This document shows positions 34,814 through 40,177 of a stretch of 44,687 bases of DNA, piece by piece. Made by a program: the position numbers and the translations under genes. Each line of letters opens with the position of its first letter. Within the stretch, counting starts at the first letter, position 1. Source of the DNA: a virus; IMG/VR virus record IMGVR_UViG_3300010331_000020, positions 1 to 44,687 of that record, one strand, 5' to 3'. Under the pieces are notes generated by a model. It was not told where the DNA came from. It did not search any database and saw only the letters and a program-made list of their open reading frames with translations.

Positions 34814-37345
34814 ATGAGCACGAAAGAACAATACATCGACTTTCTAAAGTCAAAGATTTGCATTGCGCCTGAAACTGGATTATCTATTGAAATTCCGTTA
34901 ATGGACTTCAATGATGGCACAAAACTAAAACCCCATCAAAGGGATGCAGTCAATTGGGCCATAAAAGGCGGCAGACGGGCGTTATTTGAATCTTTCGGAC
35001 TTGGTAAGACAATTCAGCAGCTTTTAATCATTCAAGCTATTTTAGAGCACGAAGGCGGTAAAGGAATTATCTGTTGTCCGTTGGGAGTTCGACAAGAATT
35101 TAAAAAAGACGGTCGCAATAAATTAGGGATCGAAGTAAACTACGTCAAGACTCAGGAAGAGGCCGACAGTTATCCAGATGGATCTATCCTAATAACCAAT
35201 TATGAACGAATCAGAGACGGTAATATTGACCCGAAAACATTTACCGTTACCAGCTTAGATGAGGCTTCAGTTTTGCGCTCTTATGGTTCAAAAACTTACC
35301 AAACATTCTTAGAAAAATTCAAAGGAGTTAAATATAAGTTTGTTTGTACCGCGACACCTTCGCCAAATAAATACAAAGAACTGATTCACTACGCCGGATA
35401 TCTTGAAGTAATGGACACCGGACAGGCTTTAACCCGATTCTTTCAAAGGGATTCAACAAAGGCCAACAACCTCACGCTTTATCCTCACAAAGAAAAAGAA
35501 TTCTGGTTCTGGCTTTCAACCTGGGCTTTATTCATCACCAAACCTTCCGATCTTGGATATTCTGACGAAGGATATGATTTGCCGGAAATGCAGGTTGTCT
35601 ACCATCCAGTAAAAGTTGACCATACCACCGCAGGCTGTGACGATGATGGCCAGGCTAAAATGTTCCGGGATTCGGCCATTGGACTGAAGGATGCCGCAAA
35701 GGAAAAGAGAGACTCAATCCCTCACAGAATTGAAATGATGGAAAGTATTATCAAAAACGATCCTGACAGCCATTACATTATTTGGCATAATCTCGAATCT
35801 GAAAGGCATGAGATTATGAAGTCTTTTCCACCAAAAGAATACAATTCGGCAGATGCTTACGGCTCGCAGGATCTCGATGAAAGAGAACAGGTTGTAATTG
35901 ATTTTAGTGAAGGGAAAATAAAGTATTTAGCAACAAAGCCGTCAATTAGCGGACAGGGTTGTAATTTTCAATATCACTGCCATAAAGCTATCTTTCTGGG
36001 TATTGGATACGAATTCAATGATTTTATTCAGGCGCTGCATAGAATTCACAGATTTCAACAAAATCAGCCGGTTGAGATTCATATTATTTACGCCGAATCG
36101 GAAGGTGAAATTCTGAAAGCGTTAGAGCACAAATGGAAACAGCATAACTATTTAGTTGAACAAATGACAAATATCATGAAAGAAAACGGTTTAAGCTCCA
36201 CAAATGGAGAGCAGAAGTTGTTGAGGTCGTTAGGACTTGAAAGAAGGGTTGAGGCTGGTAAGTTGTTCGAAGCTATCAATAACGATTGCACCATCGAAAC
36301 GATGTGTATGGATACCGATTCTGTGGACCTGATTCATACTTCAATTCCCTTTTCGAATCACTACGAATACACCCCATCATACAACGATTTCGGACACAAC
36401 GAAGGAAATGCAAGATTCTTTGAGCAAATGGATTTCTTAACACCTGAACTTTTAAGAGTATTAAGACCCGGGCGCCTTGCAGTAATTCACGTTAAAGACA
36501 GGATCTTATTCGGTAATGCTACGGGAACAGGAATGCCAACGGTTGACCCGTTCAGTGATATGACTGTATTTCATTTTATCAAAAATGGATTTCAGTACAT
36601 GGGCCGGATTACCATCGAAACCGATGTAGTAAGGGAAAACAATCAAACCTACCGACTTGGATGGACTGAAAAAACAAAAGACGGCACAAAGATGGGTGTA
36701 GGATGTCCGGAGTATCTTTTGCTGTTTAGAAAATTACCCTCGGACACTTCAAAGGCTTATGCTGATGTTCCGGTAGTAAAAACCAAAGAAGGATACAACC
36801 GTGGCCAATGGCAGATTGACGCCCGGGCAAAGTGGAACAGTTCGGGCGAAAGGTTCCTTACTCCGGATGAGCTTCGTCAGTATCCAATTGACCGAATAAA
36901 TAAATATTTTGGTGAGTGGGCAAAAGACACGGTTTATAGCTATGAAATTCATGTCGAAATTGCAATCACGCTTGACAAAATGGAAAAGCTACCTGCAACA
37001 TTTGAAACCTTGAAGATTCCGGCCCGCACACCATGGGTATGGGATGATATCAACCGAATGATTACCCTCAATTCAAAGCAGACTCAAAAGAAGTTGCAAA
37101 ATCATGTTTGCCCTCTTCAGTTCGATATCGTTGACAGGGTGGTTGAGAATTGGAGTAATCCAGGCGAATTGGTTTATGATCCTTTCGGAGGCATTATGAC
37201 AGTTCCATACAGAGCGATTAAGTTAGGACGGAAAGGAAAAGCATGTGAATTAAACCCTGACTATTTCAGGGATGGATTGTGCTATCTGAGAGCAATTGAA
37301 ACCGAAGTTCAGTCTCCGACAATGTTTGCGCTATCTGAATTTTAA
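34814..37345 (+). CDS. Helicase-methyltransferase fusion protein (843 aa)
   Basis: Residues 35-460 form an SF2/SNF2-like helicase: LKPHQRDAVNW, Walker A FGLGKT (61-66), SLDEAS, and C-terminal motif QALHRIHRFQQ. Residues 485-843 form a DNA N4/N6-methyltransferase: TSIPFSNHYEYTPSYNDFGH near 507, and the AdoMet site VYDPFGGIMTVPYRA near 787. The catalytic motif is SIPF instead of the usual (D/N/S)PP(Y/F/W). It may move along DNA and methylate phage DNA against host restriction. Confidence 0.88.
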   Translation: MSTKEQYIDFLKSKICIAPETGLSIEIPLMDFNDGTKLKPHQRDAVNWAIKGGRRALFESFGLGKTIQQLLIIQAILEHEGGKGIICCPLGVRQEFKKDGRNKLGIEVNYVKTQEEADSYPDGSILITNYERIRDGNIDPKTFTVTSLDEASVLRSYGSKTYQTFLEKFKGVKYKFVCTATPSPNKYKELIHYAGYLEVMDTGQALTRFFQRDSTKANNLTLYPHKEKEFWFWLSTWALFITKPSDLGYSDEGYDLPEMQVVYHPVKVDHTTAGCDDDGQAKMFRDSAIGLKDAAKEKRDSIPHRIEMMESIIKNDPDSHYIIWHNLESERHEIMKSFPPKEYNSADAYGSQDLDEREQVVIDFSEGKIKYLATKPSISGQGCNFQYHCHKAIFLGIGYEFNDFIQALHRIHRFQQNQPVEIHIIYAESEGEILKALEHKWKQHNYLVEQMTNIMKENGLSSTNGEQKLLRSLGLERRVEAGKLFEAINNDCTIETMCMDTDSVDLIHTSIPFSNHYEYTPSYNDFGHNEGNARFFEQMDFLTPELLRVLRPGRLAVIHVKDRILFGNATGTGMPTVDPFSDMTVFHFIKNGFQYMGRITIETDVVRENNQTYRLGWTEKTKDGTKMGVGCPEYLLLFRKLPSDTSKAYADVPVVKTKEGYNRGQWQIDARAKWNSSGERFLTPDELRQYPIDRINKYFGEWAKDTVYSYEIHVEIAITLDKMEKLPATFETLKIPARTPWVWDDINRMITLNSKQTQKKLQNHVCPLQFDIVDRVVENWSNPGELVYDPFGGIMTVPYRAIKLGRKGKACELNPDYFRDGLCYLRAIETEVQSPTMFALSEF

Positions 37346-38645: not shown

Positions 38646-38786
38646 ATGGAACTAGAAAAAATCGCGCCTTACTTGGCGCACGGATTGAAAGCATTGGATG
38701 TAAAAGGCGGTGTATGTGTCATGCCTGATATGGCAGTATTCGACACTTGGAGCCAGGCAAACGATTATATACAGACAAAGAAATGA
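38646..38786 (+). CDS. Small protein upstream of methyltransferase (46 aa)
   Basis: MELEKIAPYLAHGLKALDVKGG... is 46 residues, soluble and compact. It begins one base after the previous stop and overlaps the methyltransferase start by 4 bp (ATGA). Close coupling on both sides supports it as a gene. Its function is unknown. Confidence 0.55.
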   Translation: MELEKIAPYLAHGLKALDVKGGVCVMPDMAVFDTWSQANDYIQTKK

Positions 38787-40177
38787 AACAAATTAGCCTA
38801 TTCAGTGGAATTGGAGGTTTTGAATTAGCCGGAGAATGGGCAGGGTGGGAGAATATCGCCTCATGCGAAATTAACCCGTTTGGCAACCAGGTATTAACTC
38901 ACTACTGGCCGGAAGCCTATCACCACGACAATGTAAAAACACTCACTTACGAAAAACTAAATGAAGAACTTATTCAGCGATTTGGAACAGACTGGCGAAA
39001 CGATGACCTTATCATTACCGGAGGATTCCCATGTCAGCCATACAGTGCCGCCGGGAAACGTCTTGGAAAAGAAGATGACCGCCACCTCTGGCCGGAGATG
39101 CTTAGAATTATACGCGAAGTTAAACCGGAATGGGTTGTGGGCGAAAACGTTCTCGGCCTTACTAATTGGAATGACGGGGTGGTATTCAACGAAGTGCAGA
39201 CTGACTTGGAGTCTGCGGGGTACGAAGTATTACCGTTCGTACTTCCAGCTTGTAGCGTCAACGCTCCCCACAGAAGGGATAGGGTTTGGTTTGTTGCGCA
39301 CTCCATTAGTCGGGGACGCCACGAGCGGAGCAAGTCCGAATACAACAACGTTGGTAAACGGTCGCTTTGTAAGAACGAGCAAAGCAACAGGAACAAAGTT
39401 TGGAGCGAAACTTCAGGATGCAATAGCAACCGGATTACTACCAACACCGGATTGTTCGGACAGAAGATCGGACAACAGCAGTCAATGGGGGTTGAGCAAT
39501 TATGCAAAGAACGATCTTTTACCAACGCCAAGAGCAAACAAGGTGAACGATTGCAATCTGAACAGCGAGAATTTAGCGAACAGGAACAAGGGCAATTTAG
39601 AGGAATTAGTAGCGAAATGGGTGGTAGGTTTATTACCAAGTCCATGTGCAACGGACAGCCCGGACAAGAACACAGGAAAGAGAAACCAGGACGGATTGCA
39701 GAAAAGAGCGTTCCAGATTACTGGCGAAACTTCCCAACTCAATCCCTGGTTCGTAGCAGAAATGATGGGGTTTCCCCCGGATTGGCTGGAATTACCGTTC
39801 CAAAACACAGAAACGAAAGCATAAAAGCATACGGAAATGCAATCGTTCCACAGGTTGTTTATCAAATTTTCAAAGCAATAAATCAATACTTAAAAAATCA
39901 ATTCAAAATGAATAAATCATATTTAGGCAGAACGGTAACAAATCAGATCGAATTTAACGAACCTGGAACATTTATGTCGTATCACGCCGCCTGTAAATGG
40001 TGCAGCGATAACGGCTATTCCTACGGCTCAATGGACGGCGATAACCCGATAGCAATTTGGAAGGGTGAATGCTCAATATCTAAATGGTACAACCTGAGCA
40101 AAGAAGAAAAAGGTTCATGTGATGCTGTGATGGTTGGAGATATGAGAGATGGCCCTGTAAGTATTTATATTTTTTAG
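38783..40177 (+). CDS. DNA C5-cytosine methyltransferase with C-terminal extension
   Basis: This 464-residue enzyme should methylate cytosine in phage DNA. Motifs are all present: I (LFSGIGGFELAGEW, 6-19), IV (GGFPCQPYS, catalytic Cys84), VI (ENV, 121-123), VIII (RRDRVWFV, 164-171) and X (YGNAIVPQV, near 350). The target-recognition part (about 175-320) is unusually rich in Ser, Asn, Gln, Arg and Glu, and is fully overlapped by another long ORF. After motif X, a 90-residue extension starting MNKSYLGR (nt 39908) looks like a separate small protein fused on or started internally. Confidence 0.92.
   Translation: MKQISLFSGIGGFELAGEWAGWENIASCEINPFGNQVLTHYWPEAYHHDNVKTLTYEKLNEELIQRFGTDWRNDDLIITGGFPCQPYSAAGKRLGKEDDRHLWPEMLRIIREVKPEWVVGENVLGLTNWNDGVVFNEVQTDLESAGYEVLPFVLPACSVNAPHRRDRVWFVAHSISRGRHERSKSEYNNVGKRSLCKNEQSNRNKVWSETSGCNSNRITTNTGLFGQKIGQQQSMGVEQLCKERSFTNAKSKQGERLQSEQREFSEQEQGQFRGISSEMGGRFITKSMCNGQPGQEHRKEKPGRIAEKSVPDYWRNFPTQSLVRSRNDGVSPGLAGITVPKHRNESIKAYGNAIVPQVVYQIFKAINQYLKNQFKMNKSYLGRTVTNQIEFNEPGTFMSYHAACKWCSDNGYSYGSMDGDNPIAIWKGECSISKWYNLSKEEKGSCDAVMVGDMRDGPVSIYIF
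38961..39824 (+). CDS. Overlapping +1-frame ORF inside the methyltransferase gene (287 aa)
   Basis: The frame is open for 864 bp within methyltransferase codons 60-347. Its product has ordered, protein-like features: MKNLFSDLEQ, EKKMTATSGRRCLELYAKLNRNGLWAKTFSALLIG, GWYSTKCRLTWSLRGTKYYRSYFQL, repeated LLPTP elements, and SQLNPWFVAEMMGFPPDWLELPF. I recall very similar proteins from other Bacteroidota phages. The last motif resembles text from methyltransferase C-termini in another frame. Real dual coding is the best reading, though expression is unproven. Confidence 0.68.
   Translation: MKNLFSDLEQTGETMTLSLPEDSHVSHTVPPGNVLEKKMTATSGRRCLELYAKLNRNGLWAKTFSALLIGMTGWYSTKCRLTWSLRGTKYYRSYFQLVASTLPTEGIGFGLLRTPLVGDATSGASPNTTTLVNGRFVRTSKATGTKFGAKLQDAIATGLLPTPDCSDRRSDNSSQWGLSNYAKNDLLPTPRANKVNDCNLNSENLANRNKGNLEELVAKWVVGLLPSPCATDSPDKNTGKRNQDGLQKRAFQITGETSQLNPWFVAEMMGFPPDWLELPFQNTETKA

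Follow-up and report, generated by a model that had tools for sequence, protein, structure and literature searches.

The window, that is, the whole stretch of DNA analysed here, comprises 44,687 nt (positions 1 to 44,687 of the IMG/VR virus record IMGVR_UViG_3300010331_000020). Because terminase, portal, tail sheath, baseplate and integrase genes were found in this 44.7 kb virus contig, its source is, on gene content, probably a temperate phage with a contractile tail; the closest relatives of the window among cellular genomes are mainly Bacteroidota. The locus of interest (Table 1) contains two genes on the same strand, one inside the other: alpha, the outer frame, encodes the large domain of a C5 cytosine methyltransferase, and beta is an ORF of 287 codons in the +1 frame that starts in codon 60 of alpha and stops just 5' of alpha motif X. 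Elsewhere in the window, an 843-aa ORF (34814-37345) is mostly covered by a match to a helicase family (phrog_16), its C-terminal part matching a DNA methyltransferase family (phrog_67), and a 205-codon ORF on the minus strand overlaps the alpha/beta region. A scan of neighbouring genes turned up none for a restriction enzyme.

Table 1. Coordinates of alpha, beta and their elements in the window
Feature	Position	Strand	Basis
Alpha, C5 cytosine methyltransferase large-domain subunit, outer frame; extra C-terminal stretch after ~39900	38783..40177	+	Pfam DNA_methylase E=3e-40; model vs M.HhaI Z 23.5 / 215 residues
Beta, nested +1-frame protein, 287 aa, proposed target-recognition/motif IX subunit	38961..39824	+	PHROG 1008 E=1e-21; +1 nesting 189/189 loci; two-frame selection
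Proposed beta start codon, ~22 codons 5' of motif IV	38961..38963	+	Recurrent ATG; onset of synonymous suppression in same bin
Alpha motif IV, FPCQ, catalytic Cys	39026..39037	+	Translation; PCQ invariant in A4
Alpha motif VI, ENV	39143..39151	+	Translation; invariant in A4
Alpha motif VIII, APHRRDR	39263..39283	+	Translation; A, H, two R invariant in A4
Beta LPTP-repeat region, four elements, beta residues 111-228	39291..39650	+	In-frame equivalents in single-chain mycobacteriophage methyltransferases
Alpha segment, ~residues 185-330, replacing small domain; polar, predicted disordered	39335..39772	+	pLDDT mostly <50, without secondary structure; hydrophobic fraction 0.23 in relatives
Beta motif IX-like element LNPWFVAEMMGFPPDW	39738..39785	+	Corresponds to RLTPRECARLMGF of E. 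coli Dcm
Alpha motif X, GNAIVP, shortly 3' of beta stop	39833..39850	+	Translation; motif X in 77/78 relatives

From the ATG at 38783, alpha presents motifs I (FSGIGG), IV (FPCQ), VI (ENV), VIII (APHRRDR) and X (GNAIVP) in this order, and it matches both the Pfam family DNA_methylase (PF00145, E=3e-40) and TIGR00675. An AlphaFold2 model has high confidence over motif X and the greater part of motifs I-VIII, and its predicted large-domain fold superimposes on the large domain of M.HhaI with a Z of 23.5 across 215 residues. By sequence and model, alpha has the motifs and the large-domain fold of a C5 methyltransferase. Motif IX and a folded small domain were not found in the same chain: the motif IX pattern is absent from alpha in 78/78 relatives, motif X is present in 77 of the 78, and residues ~185-330 are disordered in the model. 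In 72 relatives, the hydrophobic fraction of the overlap segment is 0.23 vs 0.44 in motifs I-VIII, and the segment is probably a disordered, polar linker.

Beta contains four LxTP/LxSP elements (at residues 111, 159, 186 and 224), and its C-terminus consists of LNPWFVAEMMGFPPDWLELPF followed by 8 residues. The number of LPTP repeats varies among the betas of the relatives, which end in LNPxFVxEMMGFPxxW. The motif IX-like element is likened, by short motif and position, to that of single-chain relatives and to E. coli Dcm, which has RLTPRECARLMGF at the corresponding place; it was seen in 106/107 betas, a count that is no independent evidence since this peptide was itself the scan pattern by which most loci were retrieved. 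Beta matches PHROG 1008, labelled DNA methyltransferase (E=1e-21), as do 22/22 members of A1, and it has no match in Pfam or NCBIfam, nor does its profile match PDB sequences up to E=10. Predicted alone, beta gives a weak model (pLDDT 61), and the fold comparisons with Foldseek and VIA-align 2 returned noise (top Z 2.3 across 52 residues), as is to be expected of such an input, and so speak neither for nor against a C5 small domain. Its assignment as a small domain consequently depends on sequence and position.

These results agree with what the earlier note had read from the letters: the order of the five motifs, the open 287-codon +1 frame inside the methyltransferase from codon 60, the repeated LPTP-type elements and the low hydrophobicity of the methyltransferase recognition region.

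Constraint on the two reading frames

When the codons of alpha were shuffled synonymously, the +1 frame acquired a mean of 8.2 stops and was open in 0/20,000 cases; the reciprocal shuffling of beta codons gave a mean of 11.4 stops in the alpha frame, again with 0/20,000 open. Across 104 non-redundant loci, 690 stops would be expected in the +1 frame and 0 occur, the zero being somewhat favoured by the definition of beta as an open ORF; the +2 frame has 1960 vs 2064 expected.

Rates were compared in 26 disjoint close pairs, which are phylogenetically not fully independent. Before the overlap, divergence at alpha codon positions 1/2/3 is 0.150/0.097/0.362, and it is 0.135/0.073/0.228 in the catalytic half of the overlap, 0.285/0.152/0.150 in its second (TRD) half and 0.235/0.184/0.416 after it. 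Four-fold sites of alpha diverge by 0.403 before the overlap, 0.202 in the catalytic half, 0.058 in the second half and 0.428 after the overlap. In the second half, where substitutions are highest at beta codon position 3 in 26/26 pairs, alpha is almost unconstrained at its position 1 and beta is constrained; since alpha position 1 is beta position 3, beta is the frame constrained in amino acids there.

In bins of 12 codons, the drop in divergence starts ~24 codons 5' of FPCQ, and divergence is back to 0.44 right after the beta stop. An ATG lies 20-25 codons 5' of FPCQ in 73/103 loci vs 39 expected. This suppression, which extends from near the recurrent ATG to the beta stop, places both frames under purifying selection, and its boundaries are the pattern that fits an independent initiation and termination of beta.

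A chance ORF can be ruled out on the basis of the shuffles, the zero +1 stops in the 104 loci and the codon-position and four-fold results. The related idea of an untranslated by-product of the codon bias of alpha might find comfort in the existence of long chance ORFs, such as the minus-strand one mentioned above, but it is contradicted by the same results and is extremely improbable. The claims of the earlier note that the inner frame is not random and that two proteins are under selection are thus borne out, synonymous change being strongly reduced in the overlap, and the +1 stops in homologues that were looked for as a refutation did not appear.

Another possibility is that ribosomes enter the beta frame by frameshifting from alpha, making a fused alternative methyltransferase and no separate subunit. 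Frameshifting is common in phages, and a fusion past motif VIII would unite motifs I-VIII, the TRD and motif IX in a single chain. Such a fusion, however, needs no constraint on beta over the catalytic motifs, so the onset of synonymous suppression ~24 codons 5' of motif IV, together with the recurrent ATG, counts against it and makes it very unlikely.

Distribution of the nested layout and its relation to known systems

The nested layout was followed with alpha and beta profiles through 189 loci from viral contigs, genomes and named phages, picked by their similarity to nested betas (the best 80 of each large scan). In all 189, the beta ORF overlaps a same-strand alpha ORF in the +1 register, and a stand-alone beta gene was found in none of these loci so picked. 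Of 11 further phage loci, 8 have the nested +1 layout (Escherichia K1ind1, Vibrio Fayden, Salmonella SW3, Burkholderia BcepC6B, Klebsiella SJM3, Pseudomonas 5399, Microcystis Mel-JY01 and C72C1), and a plasmid search returned 7 records. The groups in whose phages or genomes nested alpha/beta pairs recur include Bacteroidota, Bacillota and Pseudomonadota; among the phages are those of Bacteroides and Porphyromonas, in keeping with the relatives in Bacteroidota phages that the earlier note had mentioned.

The closest characterised system is M.EcoHK31I (YGGCCR), a two-polypeptide C5 enzyme to which the pair is likened by published motif layout, alpha likewise having motifs I-VIII and X without IX. 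Its small gene, as Lee, Kam and Shaw reportedly described in 1995, is nested in another frame of its large gene. The large subunit carries motifs I-VIII and X as well as the predicted TRD, and motif IX is on a small separate polypeptide (PMC3404938). In the pair described here, in contrast, it is beta that carries the selected repeat region, the corresponding alpha segment being predicted to be disordered. Moreover, M.EcoHK31I is a bacterial restriction-modification enzyme whereas alpha and beta are mostly found in phages and prophages; the nested layout, common in phages and bacterial genomes, extends far beyond this one characterised enzyme. M.AquI (CYCGRG), another two-polypeptide C5 methyltransferase, is also naturally split in the region of the small domain, but its small subunit holds motif X as well; alpha and beta lack this mark of the M.AquI type, motif X being in alpha, 3' of the beta stop.

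Identical nested +1 layouts exist in Paenibacillus larvae phage Tadhana (gp54/gp55) and Escherichia phage K1ind1 (ORF29/ORF28, 'Mte8-like'), where both ORFs are annotated and no relation between the proteins is described in the records and the genome paper text; a 2018 genome paper lists DNA-cytosine methyltransferase genes for Paenibacillus larvae phages. In the literature search, outside which most subscription journals lay, the present nested family was not found described for phages, nor, within the papers searched, were the spread of the layout, the two-frame selection profile or beta as a recognition/motif IX subunit.

Other phages arrange the same elements differently. Mycobacteriophage proteins WillSterrel gp71 and DLane gp65 share the LPTP repeats and the motif IX-like element with beta but are one chain, with both in-frame between motifs VIII and X. 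In mycobacteriophage Noelle, alpha stops after motif VIII and a +1-overlapping ORF has the repeats, the motif IX-like element and motif X, a split that looks AquI-like. There are thus three layouts: nested, partly overlapping and single-chain. Single-chain mycobacteriophage methyltransferases (L192, 1172-1702; L193, 1283-1678) also keep a +1 ORF matching the N-terminal portion of beta (in WillSterrel, E 1e-16), which means that beta-like sequence is divided there over two frames.

Another phage DNA methylase gene that conceals a second protein out of frame is known from the ShiLan element, where that protein is an HNH endonuclease (PMC11855218). That element is a homing insertion with a patchy distribution; beta, in contrast, has no HNH family match and covers the conserved catalytic core, and a ShiLan-like insertion was rejected on the latter ground.

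Role of beta

Motif IX and the target recognition region of C5 methyltransferases lie in the small domain, and such enzymes, when split, are able to reassemble (PMC3404938). The locus probably encodes an EcoHK31I-like, two-polypeptide C5 cytosine methyltransferase in which beta gives the target-recognition/motif IX domain in trans; at the level of sequence, the second half of beta is homologous to a segment that other methyltransferases carry in-frame. Alpha, with motifs I-VIII and X, would form the catalytic large domain, and its linker would only join motif VIII to motif X, where single-chain enzymes hold the small domain. Translated separately from an ATG in the +1 frame, beta would provide the LPTP-repeat target-recognition region and motif IX, may dock on alpha as the missing small domain and would then set the specificity. 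The assembled enzyme would methylate phage or prophage DNA at a specific cytosine, most likely as a shield against host restriction.

Among the roles offered in the earlier note, the evidence favours a recognition-domain-like partner, and no support was found for a regulator or an antirestriction factor. Beta might still be a real protein that merely shares DNA with alpha and acts as a regulator, an antirestriction factor or something else, in line with its having, when alone, no recognisable fold or Pfam family. This is unlikely given that alpha has neither motif IX nor a folded small domain, that beta has the matching segment, found in-frame in single-chain relatives, and that beta never occurs without alpha in the 189 loci.

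A bolder proposal, and a tentative one, is that a very widespread phage enzyme family may have arisen from a single-chain methylase by interlocking frame changes that left two nested subunits. Either frame would be the native one over its own half of the overlap and overprinted over the rest, and a repeat-built specificity domain would be written, as a protein of its own, across the catalytic motifs of its partner.

Long, fully nested dual-coding genes selected in both frames have rarely been demonstrated in phages, and this overlap of ~860 bp, recurrent across phyla, makes the constraint measurable and open to experiment. Many phage 'DNA methyltransferase' annotations may cover half an enzyme only, and the outer gene, if expressed with altered codons, would lose the other half, beta.

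Variants of the alpha frame

In the window, alpha extends beyond the ends of its relatives for 89 codons more, via an in-frame ATG at 39908 (39908-40177). This tail, which has no PHROG match, looks like a fusion with a small downstream gene following the loss of a stop. Two other loci, L007 (~2480-2890) and L012 (~1517-1903), have ~130 additional alpha residues past the beta stop and ahead of motif X, for which there is no convincing PHROG match; beta stops there shortly past the motif IX-like element.

In the marine phage KM23-C739 (L024, 1852-2795), the N-terminal part of alpha and the remainder are in different frames, which is due either to a frameshift or to a sequencing error. Finally, a 6-nt insertion with an in-frame stop splits FP from CQ in alpha motif IV in L018/L019 (3030-3035), L043 (2572-2577), L057 (2566-2571) and L065 (2554-2559). 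The variants (TAG CTG, TAA CTA and TGA CCA) come from four distinct contigs and represent three different stops at one position; in each, beta is still open and longer by two codons.
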